Shown here in pieces: positions 14,226 through 22,076 of a stretch of DNA of 50,843 bases (its first letter is position 1; every line of letters begins with the position of its first letter). The notes under the pieces are model-generated. The model had not been told where the DNA came from, searched no databases, and was given only the letters and a program-made list of their open reading frames with translations. A program made the translations under genes and the position numbers. This stretch comes from Lachnospiraceae bacterium. Lineage in GTDB: Bacteria; Bacillota; Clostridia; Lachnospirales; Lachnospiraceae. The stretch spans positions 11,108 to 61,950 of the forward strand of contig JAIDPF010000025.1 in NCBI GenBank assembly GCA_029062895.1, read 5' to 3'.

Positions 14226-14298
14226 GCTGAAATAGCTCAGTTGGTAGAGCACTTCACTCGTAATGAAGGGGTCGAGGGTTCAAGTCCCTTTTTCAGCT
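14226..14298 (+). tRNA. tRNA-Thr (anticodon CGT)
   Basis: The cloverleaf is complete. The acceptor GCTGAAA (14226-14232) pairs with TTTCAGC (14291-14297), with discriminator T. The D arm is GCTC...GAGC. The anticodon stem is CTTCA/TGAAG with loop CTCGTAA, giving anticodon CGT at 14259-14261. The T arm is GAGGG-TTCAAGT-CCCTT with one G-T pair. CCA is not encoded, so it must be added after transcription. It is a single-gene unit with its own promoter and terminator. Confidence 0.97.
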
Positions 14299-14369: not shown

Positions 14370-16778
14370 TTATTTCTTTCTGGTCTTAGAACCCTGTGAC
14401 AACTCTTTTTCGATGGCGGCCTCAGCATCCGCGATCTTCTTTGCCAGCTCCTCCTTCAAGGAAGCGCGGATCTTTGCCTTCTCTTTTGCGAGCTTAGCTT
14501 TCTTTCGTTCATTTTCCAAACGCTTTTGCTCTTTTTCTTCCTTCTTTTTCTTCATTTCAGCCAGTTCTTTCTCCGTATAAGGACTACACTCAAAAATACT
14601 GATTGAAAGCGGAGCCAGCGTAACCCGGATAGACTGATCCCTTCCATCACATTCATCATCTTTGCTCGGTATCACCCTGCTGTTTACCATTCCTGTTCCG
14701 CCATAAGCCTTTGCATCTGAAGAAAAGATCTCCCGATAACGTCCCATTCCCGGCACGCCGATCTTATATTTCTCGTATGGTCTGTTTGCAAAGTTAAGAA
14801 CGATCAATAACTGGTCCTGCGTCTTTCTGCCGCTTCTGACAAACGAAACCACATTCTCATTAGCAGAAATATTGTTGATCCATGTAAATCCGGCTTCCTT
14901 TTCATCCAGTTCATAACATGCCTTATGTTCCAGATAAAAATGATTTAACGCCTTAATATATTCCCGGAAAGCTTCCGCCCCATCCCCCTGAAGCGCATCC
15001 TGCCCCATAAACATCTGCTTCTTACCGGGATGCATCATCAGATAGCCATACATCACCTTCAAGTTATTGATCCGGTCCGTCCGGTCTCCGGGCATCCTGT
15101 CTATGATATCGCCCTGTCCAAAATTCGTATTGTTATGGCTGATTGGCAGGATATAGCTTTCATTATACTGATAGATCATACTCATCGTCAGTTCATGATG
15201 ATGCGCGTAACGCTCGATGGGATCAAAAGCCATATATCCCAATACATCCTGATTCCAGCCATGATTGCAGCAAAGATCAAAACCAAGACAATCGTCCTGC
15301 ACCGCTCCCGTCATACCGCTCCAGCCGCTTTCGTCCTCGGCGATGGTCAGCACATCCGGATACTTCTTGTGCAGCAGACGGTTCCACTTCTTGATAAACT
15401 CGATTGCCTCAAGATTCTCATTACCGCCATAGATATTGGCAATCCATTGTCCGGGCTGACGGTAATAATCCAAATACAACATCGATGCGGTATCACAAAT
15501 CATAAAGCCATCCACATGATATTCCCTGATCCAATAAACCGCATTGTCCAACAGATACGCAGCGACTTCCGGTCTCTGATAATTAAACAGCAACGTACCG
15601 TTTCTTGGATCCACACCGCGTCTTGGATCTTCATGTTCATACAGACACGTTCCATCATATCTTCCAAATCCGTCCTCGCTGACCGCAAAGCAGTTCGGCG
15701 TCCATTGCAGGATCACTCCGATCTGTTCTTTATGCAATTCATTGATCAGATATTGATAATCCCACGGTGTTCCATACCTGCTGGTAGGAGCATAATAAAG
15801 AGACGTCTGATAGCCTTCTGTCTCATCCTGTGCATATTCCATGACCGGCATCAACGCCACATGCGTATAACCCATCTCTTTGACATAGGAAATCATTGCA
15901 TCGGCAATCATTTTCATATCAGGCACATTCTTATCCTGATCGCTATTCTGAGCCTCGATATCATTAAGAAACGCCCCCAGCTTACATTCATAAATATTCA
16001 TAGGAAGTTCATGGATATTCTTAGCCTTTCTTTCCTTAAGCCATGCTTCATCCTGCCATTTAAAGCCCTTCAGGGAGGTGATGATGGACGCACAGTCCGG
16101 ACGCAGCTCCTGAAGTACACTGTAGGGATCTGTTCTAAAGGAAGCGATGCCTCCGCGCATCAAAACAGCATATTTATACTTTTCTCCTTCTTTTACATCA
16201 GGCAGGAACAGTTCAAAGATACCGGTATTATACAGACGCACCATCTGGTGGATCTTTTCATTCCATTCATTAAAATCTCCCACAACGCTGACACGGACTG
16301 CATTCGGCGCCCACACTCGGAACATGCATCCACGAACGCCATCAACGGTCGTTACGTGCGCTCCCATAACTTCATAAGAGTTATTCAGGGAACCGAGATG
16401 AAATGTCTCCGCATCATCTTCAGAGAGATTGTTCACATAGTTGTAAGGATCAACAAACTGCTTCGCGCGTTTTCCCTTTTCTTTATACTGAACATAATAT
16501 TTATAATCCTTACGGTTTTTTCCGGGCAGCATCGCTGCAAAAAAACCGGTGTCGTCCATCCGTTCCATCTTGATCTCTTCTTTGACGGTCTTGCCCTTAG
16601 GTCCCTCCGAACCATTGATATATAAGCTGACTGCCTTGGCATCCGGAAAAAATGCCTGCACCAATGTCTGCTTACCCACCGTATGTGCTCCAAGATATTC
16701 CTGTGGGTGATCACATTCCGCGTAAACAACCTCTTCGATCGCCGCCCAGTCCATCATGTTATATAATTTTTTATTCAT
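14370..16778 (-). CDS. Degenerate 1,4-alpha-glucan branching enzyme homologue (probable pseudoenzyme)
   Basis: The 802-residue protein has the GlgB plan. There is an N-terminal CBM48-like module (residues about 10-110), a second immunoglobulin-like module with VWAPNAVRVSVVGDFNEW (about 150-250), a GH13 barrel (about 255-600), a C-terminal beta domain, then a Lys/Glu-rich coiled coil (about 733-802). The GH13 catalytic positions are mostly replaced: Gln358 for region I Asp, Cys363 for His, Met426 for Arg, Cys428 for the nucleophile Asp, and Asn549 for the transition-state Asp. Only Glu481 (in TIAEDES) remains. It should bind glucan but probably cannot branch it. No other glycogen genes lie near. 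SD AGGAGGGATG is strong, and the frame is intact across 802 codons, which argues for a selected non-catalytic role. Confidence 0.85.
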   Translation of the reverse strand: MNKKLYNMMDWAAIEEVVYAECDHPQEYLGAHTVGKQTLVQAFFPDAKAVSLYINGSEGPKGKTVKEEIKMERMDDTGFFAAMLPGKNRKDYKYYVQYKEKGKRAKQFVDPYNYVNNLSEDDAETFHLGSLNNSYEVMGAHVTTVDGVRGCMFRVWAPNAVRVSVVGDFNEWNEKIHQMVRLYNTGIFELFLPDVKEGEKYKYAVLMRGGIASFRTDPYSVLQELRPDCASIITSLKGFKWQDEAWLKERKAKNIHELPMNIYECKLGAFLNDIEAQNSDQDKNVPDMKMIADAMISYVKEMGYTHVALMPVMEYAQDETEGYQTSLYYAPTSRYGTPWDYQYLINELHKEQIGVILQWTPNCFAVSEDGFGRYDGTCLYEHEDPRRGVDPRNGTLLFNYQRPEVAAYLLDNAVYWIREYHVDGFMICDTASMLYLDYYRQPGQWIANIYGGNENLEAIEFIKKWNRLLHKKYPDVLTIAEDESGWSGMTGAVQDDCLGFDLCCNHGWNQDVLGYMAFDPIERYAHHHELTMSMIYQYNESYILPISHNNTNFGQGDIIDRMPGDRTDRINNLKVMYGYLMMHPGKKQMFMGQDALQGDGAEAFREYIKALNHFYLEHKACYELDEKEAGFTWINNISANENVVSFVRSGRKTQDQLLIVLNFANRPYEKYKIGVPGMGRYREIFSSDAKAYGGTGMVNSRVIPSKDDECDGRDQSIRVTLAPLSISIFECSPYTEKELAEMKKKKEEKEQKRLENERKKAKLAKEKAKIRASLKEELAKKIADAEAAIEKELSQGSKTRKK

Positions 16779-16884: not shown

Positions 16885-18123
16885 TCATTGCAGTTCATGA
16901 ATAAATAATCCGCTTCGTAATTTTGGTTCAAACCAGGTAGATTTCGGCGGCATAAGCAGCCCGGCATCTGATACTGCAAATAGTTCTCCAATAGACGTGG
17001 GATACATTGCAAACGCCAGCACACAGTCTGATGTGGCACGGCGTTCCAGTTCTTCAAGTCCACGAATGCCTCCTACAAAATCAATCCGCTGATCCGTCTT
17101 GGGATCACGGATATCAAGAAGTTCTGCCAATACATATTTCTGCAGAATCGACACATCCAGTCCGTCTACCGGATCGGAATTGCGTAGATTCTCCTTTAAC
17201 GTCAAAAGATACCATTTCCCGTCCAGATACATTGCCGTCTCGCCCTTCTTCTTTGGACAGATCGGCGCATCCGCCGGCGCACTAATCTCGTATATCTCCA
17301 AAAGCTTTTTTTTGAATTCTTCCGCAGTCATTCCGTTCAAATCCTTGACTACGCGATTATAATCCATGATCATCAGCTCATTATCCGGGAAAAGCACGGA
17401 AAGAAAATAATTGTATTCTTCCTCTCCGGTATAGCCGGGATCAGACTCCCGCCGTTTTAATCCTACTTTTACGGCAGATGCGCAACGGTGGTGTCCATCC
17501 GCAATGTAAATTGCGTTAATAGAAGCAAATGTCTCCTTCATCAGGGCGATATCCTCCGTACTGTCAATCACCCATACCCGGTGTCCGACACCATCCTCCG
17601 CAACAAAATCATAAAGCGGCTCCTCCGTTTTTGTCTTCGCAACAACATCTGCTATCCTTTGATTCGCACGGTATGCCAAAAAAATGGGTCCTGTCTGGGC
17701 ATTGCAGGTATCTACATGACGGATCCTGTCCTGCTCTTTTTCCGCTCTTGTATTCTCATGTTTTTTGATGATATTATTCTGATAATCATCAATAGAGGCG
17801 CAAGCGACAATTCCAGTCTGTACCCTGCCGCTCATGGTCAACTCATAAATATAATAACAAGGTTTCTCCTCTTTGATAAACAGTCCATCCTCCCGCCATT
17901 CCTTCAACATGGAAGAAGCTTTCTCATAAACATAATCCGCATACATATCCGCATCTTCCGGAAACTGCGTTTCCGCACGGTCGATTGCCAAGAACGAATG
18001 CGGATTTTTAAGGACAACCTCCCTTGCCTCCGCTTGATTATATACATCATACGGCAGCGCCGATATGATCTCCTCCTGTCCTTTTGTGGGACGGATTGCC
18101 TGAAATGGTTTGATGTCTGCCAT
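16885..18123 (-). CDS. DUF1015 family protein
   Basis: This is a soluble 412-residue protein of the DUF1015 family. Typical blocks are IRPTKGQEEIISALPYDVYN near the N-terminus, the central ADGHHRCASAVKVGLKRR (residues about 208-225) and a C-terminal GLLMPPKSTWFEPK. The DGHHR motif recalls the ParB/SerK-type motif that binds nucleotide in free-serine kinases, but that link is my inference. It lies in a region with serA and serC, a neighbourhood I associate with this family in clostridia, so a role in serine or phosphoserine metabolism is possible. It has its own promoter (18196-18224). Function is not established. Confidence 0.82.
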   Translation of the reverse strand: MADIKPFQAIRPTKGQEEIISALPYDVYNQAEAREVVLKNPHSFLAIDRAETQFPEDADMYADYVYEKASSMLKEWREDGLFIKEEKPCYYIYELTMSGRVQTGIVACASIDDYQNNIIKKHENTRAEKEQDRIRHVDTCNAQTGPIFLAYRANQRIADVVAKTKTEEPLYDFVAEDGVGHRVWVIDSTEDIALMKETFASINAIYIADGHHRCASAVKVGLKRRESDPGYTGEEEYNYFLSVLFPDNELMIMDYNRVVKDLNGMTAEEFKKKLLEIYEISAPADAPICPKKKGETAMYLDGKWYLLTLKENLRNSDPVDGLDVSILQKYVLAELLDIRDPKTDQRIDFVGGIRGLEELERRATSDCVLAFAMYPTSIGELFAVSDAGLLMPPKSTWFEPKLRSGLFIHELQ

Positions 18124-18195
18124 AGAAAATCCCTTTCTTTTGTCTATAATAAGAAAATATGATCTGCCGCGTCTTTGGAACGGATAATCATATCT

Positions 18196-18224
18196 ATTTT
18201 AACAAAAAATAAACCATAACACAA
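18196..18224 (-). promoter_or_regulatory. Promoter of the DUF1015 gene
   Basis: On the minus strand TTGTGT (18219-18224), 17-bp spacer, TAAAAT (18196-18201), followed by a leader of about 65 nt to the ATG at 18123. Confidence 0.6.
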
Positions 18225-18305
18225 GAAATTCCGCTTTTCAAAATACCTGAATTGTACTATAATCCATTATAATAAAAATAAAACAAGCATAAGGAGCGCT
18301 TAGCC

Positions 18306-18587
18306 ATGACTAAGGAAGATGAAATCTTTTTAGACCGTATCAATGAATATGCCGACAAAGTGCTGGACGGGATTGACCCTCAAAAAACCCAGGTATCCTT
18401 TCAATTGGAAAAACTACGTCCAATCATGGAAGAACTTGCCAAAGAAAACAATTCCACCGTGGAAGAAACTTTTATCCGTTATATGGATCTTGCAACAGAA
18501 CGCAGCGTTACCTTAGAACGTAAGTTTCAAAGCACGCTGGGCAACATGAATACCTACGGCGATGTTATGGACGGTAACAAAATATAG
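18306..18587 (+). CDS. Small acidic protein of unknown function
   Basis: This 93-residue protein looks largely helical (MTKEDEIFLDRINEYADKVL at the start, then charged amphipathic segments) with no signal peptide, membrane helix, or cysteine/histidine cluster. I do not recognise its family. It is a real gene in my judgement: SD AAGGAG lies 9 nt before the ATG, TATAAT-like promoter sequence lies near 18262, and a clear terminator (18602-18634) follows the stop. It stands alone and is divergent from the DUF1015 gene. Confidence 0.75.
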   Translation: MTKEDEIFLDRINEYADKVLDGIDPQKTQVSFQLEKLRPIMEELAKENNSTVEETFIRYMDLATERSVTLERKFQSTLGNMNTYGDVMDGNKI

Positions 18588-18601
18588 GATCAACATACAG
18601 A

Positions 18602-18634
18602 AATCCCACTCTATTAACAAAGCAGAGTGGGATT
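18602..18634. terminator. Terminator after the 93-aa gene
   Basis: AATCCCACTCT (18602-18612) pairs with AGAGTGGGATT (18624-18634), followed by TTTTACTTTTT on the plus strand. It could also stop the convergent lipoprotein transcript. Confidence 0.85.
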
Positions 18635-18665
18635 TTACTTTTTGAATCAATCTGTGGAATCAGTA

Positions 18666-19121
18666 TCATTCTACTGTAAAGGTAAGACTGTTGAATGCCT
18701 TTTTTGCACCGCGTGAACCTGCCAGACTAGCAATAAGTACGCCTGTGTCACTTCCATCGATCCATACGATAAAGTTGCTTTCCATTCCTGCCAGCCCATC
18801 AAATTCGTAAAACAACCATGTCAGACCATTGGCAGAATCTTCTTCAATGTTCTCTACCCCATCCGCAATTTTTACCATTTCCATATAATAATCATAAGTA
18901 TCCTCATCAATAAAGCTGCCCTGAAGGATCGTCTCATCATCTTCCGTAACGATAAAAATATCGTCTTCATTCTCCAACATTAAGCCGTCCGAAGTATCCA
19001 GTGCCAACTTAACGGTATCCCCCGTCCCAACCTCGTAGGTATAACTTATACTTGTGGAACAGCCTGTCAATACCATCATTCCGAGAAGCACACTTAATAC
19101 TAGTGCCGTTAACTTTTTCAT
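18666..19121 (-). CDS. Small lipoprotein, paralogue A
   Basis: This 151-residue secreted lipoprotein has a signal peptide and lipobox LTGC (Cys21). The mature part is a short beta-rich acidic domain with blocks GTGDTVKLALDTSDG, EEDSANGLTW and FIVWIDGSDTG. It is clearly paralogous to the product at 19309-19758, which has the same blocks in the same order. Membrane outer-face location is inferred from the lipobox. I do not recognise a family or a ligand. A terminator (19206-19237) separates it from its paralogue, so it is probably transcribed on its own. Confidence 0.8.
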   Translation of the reverse strand: MKKLTALVLSVLLGMMVLTGCSTSISYTYEVGTGDTVKLALDTSDGLMLENEDDIFIVTEDDETILQGSFIDEDTYDYYMEMVKIADGVENIEEDSANGLTWLFYEFDGLAGMESNFIVWIDGSDTGVLIASLAGSRGAKKAFNSLTFTVE

Positions 19122-19205
19122 TTTCTTTCTCCCTCCTTTAAATAATATAGCTTTAATATATAAAATTACTCCACCTAATTATAAATTATAGCATTAATAC
19201 AAAAT

Positions 19206-19237
19206 ACCGGAAACCACCCCTTTGGTGCGTTTCCGGT
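19206..19237 (-). terminator. Terminator after lipoprotein paralogue B
   Basis: The stem ACCGGAAAC/GTTTCCGGT (19206-19214, 19229-19237) with an inner CACC/GGTG pair is followed on the minus strand by ATTTTGTATT. Confidence 0.75.
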
Positions 19238-19308
19238 GTTCGATGTCAACCTTAGGTTGCGCTCATTTGAGTACTGATTATGATCTTCCAATCATATTGC
19301 CATTCCAA

Positions 19309-19758
19309 TTACTTTACGGAGAAAGTAAGACTATCGAATACTTTTTTTTCAGTATCATAATCTTCCATACCACCCATAACCAAGCCCGTGTCACTTCCGT
19401 TGATCCAGACGATAAAGGAACTTCTTCCGTCTAAGTTATAAGAAGTCCATGTAATACCATTCGCGGAATCTTCTTCAATAATCTCTACCAAATCGTCGAG
19501 TGCATGCTTATAGGCTTCATAATCATCCTCATCGACAAAGGCTGCCTGAAAAATCTTATCGTCATCCTGCGTCACATAAAAACCGTAGTCATCAGCCCCT
19601 TCCAGCATAAAACCTTCCGAGGTATCCAGAGTTACTTTAATGGTATCTCCTGTCCCGACATTGCAGGTCACACTCATACTCGATGCGCAACTTGTAAGCG
19701 CAAGGATGATAACCATCACACATATAACCGGCGTAAGTCCTTTACAAAATTTCCTCAT
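19309..19758 (-). CDS. Small lipoprotein, paralogue B
   Basis: This 149-residue lipoprotein has a signal peptide and lipobox LTSC (Cys24), with a mature domain matching paralogue A: GTGDTIKVTLDTSEG, EEDSANGITW, FIVWINGSDTG and C-terminal FDSLTFSVK. It starts 41 bases after the serA stop with no terminator between, so it may be the last gene of a serC-serA-lipoprotein transcript. AAAGGAG lies 12 nt before the ATG, a long spacing. The function is unknown; similarity to paralogue A suggests an ancient tandem duplication. Confidence 0.8.
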   Translation of the reverse strand: MRKFCKGLTPVICVMVIILALTSCASSMSVTCNVGTGDTIKVTLDTSEGFMLEGADDYGFYVTQDDDKIFQAAFVDEDDYEAYKHALDDLVEIIEEDSANGITWTSYNLDGRSSFIVWINGSDTGLVMGGMEDYDTEKKVFDSLTFSVK

Positions 19759-19798
19759 CCTGTTTCTCTGCTCCTTTGGTTTTGGTAATAGACTCCGC

Positions 19799-20962
19799 TT
19801 ATTTAATCACTCTGACTTTAATGACATCCTCAATTGCAGTCAGCTTCGCCACGATATCATCCGATACCACTCCTGCTACATCAAGCATCGTATAAGCATA
19901 CTCGCCCTTGGACTTGTTCATCATATTCTCGATATTGATGCCAAGATCTCCAAAAGTTGCGGTGAACTTCGTGATCATATTCGCCACATTCTTATGGCAG
20001 ATCGCTACACGTCCCTGTGAAGTGCAGATGCCCATATCCACATTCGGATAATTCACGCTATTAACAATATTGCCGTTCTCCAGAAAATTCATCATTTCCT
20101 TAACAGCCATCTTGGCACAGTTATCCTCCGCTTCTTCTGTAGATGCTCCAAGATGCGGAATGACAATACAACCTTCTGCGCCTGCCGTAGTTACATTCGG
20201 GAAATCCGTAACATATTTTCTGATCTTTCCGGACTTGATTCCGGCAAGGACAGCCTTCTCATCCGCAAGAAGATCACGCGCAAAATTAAGCAGGATCACC
20301 CCATCCTTCATCATACTGATGGCTTCCTCGTTGATCATACCTTTGGTGGAATCCATTAAAGGCACATGAACTGTAATAAAATCACATTCACTGTAAATAT
20401 CATTTAGATCAACCACATGCTTTACCTCACGGCTAAGGCTCCATGCTGCATTAACAGACACATACGGATCATATCCATAGACCTCCATCCCAAGATGGAT
20501 CGCTGCATTCGCTACTTTCACGCCGATTGCGCCCAGACCAATCACACCCAGCTTCTTACCTTCTATTTCCGTTCCGGCAAATTTCTTCTTTTCTTTTTCA
20601 ACTGCCTTTGCAATATTCTCATCATCCTGATCTTCTTCCACCCACTGGATACCGCCGACGATATCCCGGCTTCCCAGCAGCATACCTGCGAGCACAAGCT
20701 CCTTGACTGCATTAGCATTGGCCCCCGGCGTATTAAATACGACAACGCCCTTCTCTGCACATTGATCCAACGGAATATTATTGACGCCAGCCCCGGCTCT
20801 TGCAACTGCCAGCAGACTATCCGGTAGCTTCATATCATGCATCGCCGCGCTTCTGACCAGAATCCCCTGCGCCTCGTCATACTGCTCCGTCTTTACATAA
20901 TCTTTTGTAAAAACATCTAATCCCACCTGAGCGATCGGATTTAAACAATGATACTTAAACAT
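19799..20962 (-). CDS. serA: D-3-phosphoglycerate dehydrogenase
   Basis: This enzyme oxidises 3-phosphoglycerate to 3-phosphohydroxypyruvate, the first step of serine synthesis. Visible are the substrate-side ARAGAGVNNIPLD (catalytic Arg nearby), the Rossmann fingerprint GVIGLGAIGVKVANAA, the catalytic-His region VIPHLGASTEEAEDNC, and a C-terminal ACT domain of about 80 residues that in relatives senses serine. The 387-residue form with a single ACT domain lacks the longer intervening domain of type I enzymes. It follows serC by 31 bases in the same operon. SD GGAG. Confidence 0.95.
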   Translation of the reverse strand: MFKYHCLNPIAQVGLDVFTKDYVKTEQYDEAQGILVRSAAMHDMKLPDSLLAVARAGAGVNNIPLDQCAEKGVVVFNTPGANANAVKELVLAGMLLGSRDIVGGIQWVEEDQDDENIAKAVEKEKKKFAGTEIEGKKLGVIGLGAIGVKVANAAIHLGMEVYGYDPYVSVNAAWSLSREVKHVVDLNDIYSECDFITVHVPLMDSTKGMINEEAISMMKDGVILLNFARDLLADEKAVLAGIKSGKIRKYVTDFPNVTTAGAEGCIVIPHLGASTEEAEDNCAKMAVKEMMNFLENGNIVNSVNYPNVDMGICTSQGRVAICHKNVANMITKFTATFGDLGINIENMMNKSKGEYAYTMLDVAGVVSDDIVAKLTAIEDVIKVRVIK

Positions 20963-20993
20963 AGTTCCAACTCCTGCCTTTCATTCTTCTATA

Positions 20994-22076
20994 TTAGCTG
21001 TTCTGGGCTTCAAACTTCTTCATGAAATCAACCAATGCCTGCACGCCCTCTATCGGCATCGCATTATAGATACTTGCACGCATACCGCCCACTGACCGAT
21101 GTCCCTTTAAATTCTCAAATCCTGCTTCCTTGGCTTCCTTAACAAACTTCGCGTCCAAGTCGGCATCTCCCGTAACAAAGGGAACATTCATCAGGGAACG
21201 GTCTTCCTTTCTGACAGTTCCTTTAAACAGCTTGCTTTCGTCCAGAAAATCATAAAGAATCTTTGCCTTCTTTTCATTTCTTTCTTTCATCGCTTCCAGA
21301 CCGCCCATCTTTTTGATCCACTTAAAAACCTTTCCGCAGATGTAGATGCCATATGCAGGCGGTGTATTGTAAAGGGAATCATTGTCCGCATGCGTCTTAT
21401 ATTTTAACATGGTCGGAGTTCCCGGAAGAACCTCCTCCGTAATCAGGTCTTCCCTGATAATCACGATTACCACGCCAGCCGGTCCGATATTCTTCTGTAC
21501 GCCGCCATAGATTACTCCATACTTTGTCACATCCACCGGCTCACTTAAGAAGCAGGAAGATACATCGGCAACCAGAGTCTTACCCTTAGTATTCGGAAGT
21601 GTCTTGAACTTCGTACCATAGATGGTATTGTTCTCGCAGATATATACGTAATCTGCATCCTCCGAAATCGGCAGATCAGAACAGTCCGGAATATAAGAAA
21701 ATGTCTCATCCTCAGAAGACGCGATCTTATTAGCTTTCCCATAGATCTGAGCCTCCTGATAAGCCTTCTTAGCCCACTGTCCGGTCACAATGTAATCAGC
21801 AACCTTATTTTTCATCAGATTCATCGGAATCATTGCAAACTGCTGACTTGCACCGCCCTGTAAGAACAGCACCTTATAATTATCAGGAATGTTCATAAGC
21901 TCTCTTAAGTCTGCCTCTGCTTCCTTAATAATGTTATCATATGTCTTGGATCGGTGGCTCATCTCCATTACGGACATGCCGCTTCCCTTATAATCCAGCA
22001 TCTCATCTGCTGCTTCCTTCAATACCTCTTCCGGCAATACGGCCGGTCCTGCGGAAAAATTATACACTCTTCCCAT
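20994..22076 (-). CDS. serC: Phosphoserine aminotransferase
   Basis: This PLP enzyme converts 3-phosphohydroxypyruvate and glutamate to phosphoserine. The start MGRVYNFSAGPAVLPEEVL is diagnostic. LFLQGGASQQFAMIPMNLM and the PLP-lysine segment YGVIYGGVQKNIGPAG follow, and the C-terminus has GHRSVGGMRASIYNAMP. Its 360 residues are normal. It has a strong SD (AGGAGGAGCAGG) and a promoter 80-110 bases upstream. It is first in the operon, with serA after it. No serB is seen in the window. Confidence 0.96.
   Translation of the reverse strand: MGRVYNFSAGPAVLPEEVLKEAADEMLDYKGSGMSVMEMSHRSKTYDNIIKEAEADLRELMNIPDNYKVLFLQGGASQQFAMIPMNLMKNKVADYIVTGQWAKKAYQEAQIYGKANKIASSEDETFSYIPDCSDLPISEDADYVYICENNTIYGTKFKTLPNTKGKTLVADVSSCFLSEPVDVTKYGVIYGGVQKNIGPAGVVIVIIREDLITEEVLPGTPTMLKYKTHADNDSLYNTPPAYGIYICGKVFKWIKKMGGLEAMKERNEKKAKILYDFLDESKLFKGTVRKEDRSLMNVPFVTGDADLDAKFVKEAKEAGFENLKGHRSVGGMRASIYNAMPIEGVQALVDFMKKFEAQNS

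Follow-up and report, generated by a model that had tools for sequence, protein, structure and literature searches.

Repeated loss of catalytic residues in a tailed homologue of the branching enzyme GlgB from Lachnospiraceae

The locus and its GlgB homologue

The window analyzed here is a stretch of 50,843 nucleotides from a Lachnospiraceae bacterium. Its reverse strand encodes a long homologue of the branching enzyme GlgB, with a DUF1015 gene and serA-like and serC genes upstream. The features are as follows, with residue replacements given relative to E. coli GlgB.

14370..16778 (-): open reading frame of a tailed GlgB homologue, 802 aa, predicted to be non-catalytic
16689..16778 (-): N-terminal segment, residues 1-30, with the LYxxMDW motif; lowest column entropy in the inactive genus clade
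16443..16748 (-): GlgB_N domain, residues 11-112 (PF22019, E 3.7e-26 for the protein)
16119..16367 (-): CBM48, residues 138-220, with W172, equivalent to E. coli W159 of glucan site IV (PF02922, E 7.8e-29)
15705..15707 (-): Q358 replacing D335 (phmmer and MAFFT alignments)
15690..15692 (-): C363 replacing H340 (phmmer and MAFFT alignments)
15501..15503 (-): M426 replacing R403 (phmmer and MAFFT alignments)
15495..15497 (-): C428 replacing the nucleophile D405 (phmmer and MAFFT alignments; not Asp in 33/33 same-genus rows)
15492..15494 (-): D429 at the Ala406 position (Asp or Glu in 33/33 same-genus rows; helix 430-434 next)
15336..15338 (-): E481, equivalent to the acid/base E458 and kept here (MAFFT alignment; present in only 14/33 same-genus rows)
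15132..15134 (-): N549 replacing D526 (phmmer and MAFFT alignments)
14586..14882 (-): Alpha-amylase_C domain, residues 633-731, with W633, equivalent to E. coli W628 of glucan site VI (PF02806)
14373..14579 (-): Lys/Glu-rich C-terminal helical tail, residues 734-802 (single helix 736-795 in the model)
16885..18123 (-): DUF1015 gene, 106 nt upstream of the GlgB homologue (PF06245, E 2.7e-120)
19799..22076 (-): serA-like and serC genes, upstream (best model of the former, phosphoglycerate dehydrogenase-like, below its cut-off; SerC over its cut-off)

Two tandem similar small proteins at window positions 18666-19121 and 19309-19758 are lipoprotein-like by sequence and gave no Pfam match. A tRNA-Thr (CGT) lies on the opposite strand between alaS and the GlgB homologue (14226-14298, +). 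The DUF1015 protein gave no PDB match at E <= 1.

The Pfam models GlgB_N, CBM48, Alpha-amylase, and Alpha-amylase_C all matched the 802-aa product, and its nearest solved relatives were branching enzymes (phmmer E 5.7e-151, Cyanothece GlgB 5gqz). An AlphaFold2 model computed from an input of 33 sequences reached a mean pLDDT of 80 and a pTM of 0.79, with N-terminal helices at residues 3-8 and 11-18. When this model was compared with the PDB, branching enzymes ranked first (best E 8.6e-75; 3k1d with TM 0.80 by query and 0.89 by target), the matches to Cyanothece structures aligning at a high rmsd of ~15.8. By domain matches, model, and structure comparison, the architecture and fold are those of GlgB. 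The chain is of full length, and the long inactive gene is present with an open frame in 33 of 35 genomes of the genus group (one copy, L009, being cut by a contig end), which agrees with the sequence-only reading that the gene has not decayed by frameshift; the two genomes without it are 81% and 67% complete.

Catalytic residues and the remodelled cleft

In phmmer alignments to PDB GlgB chains and in a MAFFT alignment against E. coli K-12 GlgB, the E. coli residues D335/H340/R403/D405/E458/H525/D526 correspond to Q358/C363/M426/C428/E481/H548/N549. The triad D405/E458/D526 thus reads C428/E481/N549, and the GH13-motif residues D335, H340, and R403 read Q358, C363, and M426; neither set is that of a GlgB. 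The sequence-only reading had listed D335, H340, R403, D405, and D526 as replaced, and each substitution was correct in both alignments; its claim that only Glu481 is left held for E458, but H525 is kept too, as H548.

The substitutions are common to the clade. Among the 33 long copies from the same genus, D405, R403, H340, and D526 are found in none, D335 in 1, E458 in 14, and H525 in 17, so that 12 rows keep none of the seven key residues, 10 keep one, and 11 keep two. The nucleophile position is occupied by Leu (13 rows), Cys (6), Thr (4), Ser (4), Asn (2), Gln (2), Met (1), and Lys (1), and positions 335, 340, 403, 405, 458, and 526 all vary freely within the clade. With the nucleophile D405 in 0/33 rows, the same-genus counts exclude chance or a sequencing slip as the source of the loss. 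As a control, all 18 further GlgB rows from relatives kept the seven residues. A second control found them in 74 of 78 GlgB rows, the exceptions being L310 and L312, both tailed and previously recognized as inactive, a split-gene fragment (L298), and one more inactive long copy (L300). The loss extends beyond the key residues: of 185 barrel columns conserved at >=90% in 82 active orthologues, 33 fell to <=10% in 29 inactive rows and 59 were kept, indicating that the cleft as a whole is relaxed. According to an excerpt of PMC11046441, the double displacement of GH13 enzymes requires the nucleophile Asp, and from these sequences we infer that the 802-aa protein has no branching activity.

As the residue following C428 is an Asp, we examined whether it could occupy the nucleophile slot. 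The region corresponding to E. coli 398-414 aligns gap-free in all 33 same-genus long rows, placing D429 at E. coli Ala406, immediately after the nucleophile position; moving it into the slot would need gaps. Position 406 is Ala in 82/82 active orthologues and Asp or Glu in 33/33 genus rows; the 19 other inactive rows have Asp (9), Ser (5), Asn (2), Gly (1), Glu (1), and Met (1). In the AlphaFold2 model, a short helix of residues 430-434 begins directly after D429. The gap-free alignment and the helix start at 430 rule out D429 as a displaced nucleophile; D429 is probably a helix N-cap, allowed once the cleft is free. Position 416 is Tyr in 33/33 genus rows and Gly in 99% of active orthologues.

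Twelve glucan sites have been listed for E. coli GlgB, with I and VII proposed to belong to the donor path (excerpt of PMC10254366). Among the 33 same-genus rows, the equivalent of W159 (site IV) is Trp in 28 and that of W628 (site VI) in all 33, and the W262 position is aromatic in 16. W586 (site I) is Trp in a single row, and the positions of Y499 (site VIII) and F294 (site XII) are aromatic in none; active orthologues keep the sites to which all six residues belong. The donor path is thus gone and two surface aromatics stay, which fits binding without catalysis but is no proof of it: W628 may have a structural role, and since sites I, VIII, and XII have disappeared, the protein may bind glucan weakly or no longer at all.

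The gene is nevertheless maintained, as the sequence-only reading had supposed. Purifying selection was evident in 11 pairs (dN/dS 0.032-0.089, Nei-Gojobori, own script, tail included), 4 of which have saturated dS >1, and the tail segment considered by itself gave 0.03-0.09 in five close pairs. Comparison genes, with three pairs each, gave 0.074-0.092 for DUF1015 and 0.005-0.039 for alaS. The source genome, 97.9% complete, holds three GlgB homologues, and the other two, L005 and L006, lie on contigs 5 and 102 and retain the full set of seven residues; canonical glgB genes are thus present elsewhere in it. The genome also has glgA on contig 114 and, on contig 64, a glgD match over cut-off adjoining a second match taken as glgC. 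Another genome of the genus, G014, yielded as its sole further GlgB a copy broken into two frames; the split in the short GlgB L045 (G014 contig 88) is either a sequencing error or real. A third GlgB type of 643 aa with intact residues was seen at L008 9566-11497 (-), on a contig that also has a folC gene and an ABC transporter. Clade-wide residue loss (D405 and D526 in 0/33), purifying selection, and the intact paralogues L005 and L006 are the features that mark the protein as a putative pseudoenzyme.

The protein passes the cut-offs of the curated models TIGR01515 (626.5 vs 463.95 bits) and NF008967 (657 vs 577) and stays below those of NF003811 (674.3 vs 741), NF009221, NF011293, and NF011294. 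Since two NCBI equivalog models accept it as GlgB, the mis-annotation as glgB foreseen in the sequence-only reading is likely. The protein is a GlgB by descent but lacks the catalytic features tested, and the name "branching enzyme" is therefore unsuitable.

Repeated loss in the tailed GlgB lineage

We looked for the same loss elsewhere in the family, defining the inactive group in trees and counts by the catalytic residues. A named scan covered 80 Lachnospiraceae-type loci, and a family survey covered 150 genomes, one or two per genus group. The two sets overlap, several entries being the same genome (e.g., L137 and L191). In the scan, 10 of the 80 loci had lost a triad residue: seven in the window's group, one of them from Lachnospiraceae bacterium AB2028 (L064), and three others (L092, L132, and L137). 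Most remaining loci were intact, for example those of Robinsoniella, Parablautia, Murimonas, and Anaerobium. The survey gave, among the matches listed and starting within the first 27 query residues, 98 long GlgB from 84 genomes (two further such matches, G000 and G002, belonged to the analysis already and are not among the 98); of these listed matches, 81 keep all seven residues, 16 have lost at least one triad residue, and one (L239) keeps the triad and has lost H525. In L289 (G137 contig 3), a single open frame encodes a GH13 resembling neopullulanase or maltogenic amylase fused to a GlgB whose residues are intact.

Trees were computed with near-copies left out, giving 29 of the 33 genus rows in the genus tree, 158 rows in FastTree, and 57 rows in IQ-TREE under a mixture model. 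The genus clade forms a single branch. Inactivity needs five changes on the FastTree tree and six on the IQ-TREE tree, where starred branches force five. The two trees differ in the placements of L234/L245 and L239. Constraining all 26 inactive rows together cost 317 log-likelihood units, and a single shared loss for all inactive copies was rejected (AU test, p 7.3e-7) with the long branches L266, L251, and L239 in the set. Both trees place L223 beside the intact L174 as its sister, with high support, which makes it a clear separate loss; L229 and L239 still have the nucleophile inside the large mixed inactive clade of the FastTree tree, and further losses may thus be hidden there. The loss that the sequence-only reading saw in one gene is real, but its scope was too narrow, as the trees place several losses of catalysis in the tailed GlgB lineage. 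The 762-aa long GlgB L300 (G220 contig 51) also lacks the catalytic residues, and since its nearest relatives are the untailed long GlgB L252 and L250 (35% identity), catalytic loss occurs outside the tailed lineage as well.

Among the matches listed, a defective tailed copy occurs in 17 genomes, and each of these also carries a GlgB with the full set of seven residues, in one case (G090) as a 633-aa copy plus a copy split over two frames. Of 59 genomes in which the tailed copy is unimpaired, 48 have another GlgB as well, and the association between a second GlgB and catalytic loss is not significant (17/17 vs 48/59, Fisher p 0.11). The best reading is that the catalysis of the tailed GlgB was dropped repeatedly in genomes holding another GlgB.

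Outside the barrel, the tailed lineage shares both ends of the chain. Within the inactive genus clade, conservation is strongest in residues 1-30, with a mean column entropy of 0.59 bits, against 1.47 in the barrel and 1.43 in the tail. The corresponding values for the 82 active orthologues are 1.52, 0.91, and 2.33 bits; because the diversity of the two sets is unequal, only the reversal seen inside each set is meaningful. The LYxxMDW motif is present in 29/29 inactive genus rows, 15/19 other inactive rows, and 66/84 active members of the tailed lineage and in 0/26 other GlgB. In the model the tail forms a single uninterrupted helix of residues 736-795, with confidence falling toward its end, and the Lys/Glu tail of the sequence-only reading does exist; it was not added to an inactive protein, however, as 60 of 82 active tailed-lineage GlgB have tails of at least 40 residues. 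That the tail is an addition of the inactive form is ruled out by these active Lachnospiraceae orthologues, which are tailed and have the same N-terminal motif. Tails of <40 residues occur in 22/82 active and 4/19 inactive members, so the tail is not essential to a shared function in all. A 46-aa tail query found no second protein with the tail in the same genome at E <= 10. A general short C-terminal LKEEL-type motif (own pattern) failed as a shared feature, matching 23/29 genus rows, 3/19 other inactive rows, and 12/84 active ones.

The neighbourhood is shared too. The order serC, serA, DUF1015, tailed GlgB, MscS is found in many Lachnospiraceae (window 16885-22076, loci L059-L138). The adjacent upstream gene is DUF1015 in 40 of 62 active loci whose flank is long enough, in 8 of the 9 inactive loci from the 80-locus set, and in all 18 genus rows. 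The adjacent downstream gene is MscS, with matched channel domains, in 46/65, 5/9, and 13/17, respectively, the window being counted twice among the genus rows (as L004) and L135 standing outside the count. Among 69 active loci, serA is near 40 and serC near 37. The gene order predates the catalytic loss. In the window's subclade there is no MscS, and alaS lies 364 nt beyond the GlgB homologue.

A putative non-catalytic role and its alternatives

The features shared by active and inactive members suggest that the tailed GlgB has a second, non-enzymatic job. Our best explanation would start from a full GlgB ancestor, whose N-terminal motif, CBM48, GH13 barrel, and beta C-domain were, by the comparisons above, usually accompanied by a charged C-terminal tail and whose gene most often followed DUF1015. 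The donor-chain cleft, as the sequences record, was then remodelled in the window's genus group, presumably with loss of catalysis, and the same would have happened separately in other genera. Selection would have kept a second function that the active ancestor already had. The protein probably binds glucan via its kept surface sites and meets partners via its conserved N-terminus and helical tail: glycogen or maltodextrin would be held through CBM48 W172 and C-domain W633, and the hyper-conserved N-terminus and long helical tail would hold a partner, another GlgB copy, or the protein itself. Glycogen synthesis might thereby be organized or regulated, as ISA2 does for ISA1 and GlgD for GlgC. 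On the whole we find it reasonably probable, and well short of certain, that the protein is a pseudoenzyme, descended from the tailed Lachnospiraceae GlgB and kept for a non-catalytic role in glycogen metabolism.

The partner could instead be unrelated to glycogen, the protein being a scaffold only for protein contacts, e.g., with DUF1015 or MscS, and its sugar binding vestigial. The conservation of the DUF1015/MscS neighbourhood in active, inactive, and genus loci and the loss of several glucan sites would fit this, but the Trp of CBM48 and that of the C-domain are kept, MscS is lost as a neighbour in the window's own subclade, and operon membership alone does not show contact; we consider this explanation unlikely, though worth keeping in view. 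Rather doubtful, in our judgement, is the proposal that the tailed GlgB has been a dual and mainly structural protein all along, with its N-terminus and tail tying glycogen to an envelope/osmotic module (MscS, DUF1015), and that secondary catalysis was shed repeatedly once another GlgB took over branching.

Explanations that retain catalysis or deny function fare worse. A new activity housed in the old barrel, with D429 and E481 or other residues as its catalysts, would make sense of the uniform Asp/Glu at 406 and Tyr at 416, both unlike the active orthologues, and of E458 being kept in 14/33 genus rows. A conserved active site would, however, forbid the free variation seen at positions 335, 340, 403, 405, 458, and 526; the Asp, Ser, Asn, Gly, or Glu found at 406 in 18 of the 19 other inactive rows fits a helix N-cap, as does the helix that follows D429 in the model, and we regard a new activity as very improbable. 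Even less credible is a still weakly active branching enzyme: E458 and H525 are present and the modelled fold is intact, but the nucleophile, the transition-state Asp, and the Arg beside the nucleophile are all gone, and GH13 catalysis is described as needing the nucleophile (PMC11046441, in part). We give least weight of all to slow decay of a redundant gene, for which the second and third GlgB of the genome would allow but which the open frames across the genus and the low dN/dS contradict.

The nearest known systems clarify what a pseudoenzyme of this kind would be. The bacterial GlgB of the E. coli, Cyanothece, and M. tuberculosis structures have the same domain order and fold and are homologous over the whole length, but the 802-aa protein lacks the triad and most of the donor-chain cleft and has a charged helical tail. 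The active tailed GlgB of other Lachnospiraceae (Robinsoniella peoriensis L072, Parablautia muri L107, and Anaerobium acetethylicum L095) form a sister lineage with the same N-terminal motif, a tail, and often the same DUF1015 and MscS neighbours; they differ in having all seven catalytic residues. ISA2, a non-catalytic plant isoamylase in the ISA1/ISA2 complex with a proposed role in binding glucan and attracting enzymes (excerpt of PMC12510319), offers a working analogy as a GH13 starch enzyme without catalysis beside an active paralogue, but it belongs to the debranching lineage, and its complex and phenotype have been measured, whereas those of the 802-aa protein are putative. GlgD, described in part of PMC10395257 as the regulatory partner of GlgC, is likewise a glycogen-pathway partner without a catalytic role and is encoded in the same genome, but it derives from another enzyme and fold, and any complex of the 802-aa protein is putative. 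We see ISA2 and GlgD as precedents for the arrangement and not as relatives. Plant scaffolds of the PTST type reportedly combine a CBM48 with a coiled coil and thus likewise place a carbohydrate-binding module beside a long helix; they have no GH13 barrel, and in the 802-aa protein the tail is one modelled helix whose coiled-coil pairing is putative.

Three glgB homologues have been noted in Blautia obeum by a review (excerpt of PMC10395257), and excerpts of PMC4236520 make no mention of inactive copies in bacteria. Plants are known to have relatives of starch enzymes that lack catalysis; we found no report of a non-catalytic bacterial GlgB as their counterpart in the open-access library searched. 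If the dual-protein proposal were true, bacteria would have a glycogen scaffold comparable to the starch scaffolds of plants. The repeated loss in one lineage provides natural replicates in which the features kept by all inactive copies point at the second function, and genera with both active and inactive orthologues allow direct comparison. As two curated equivalog models accept the protein as GlgB, glgB counts in gut genomes overstate the capacity for branching.
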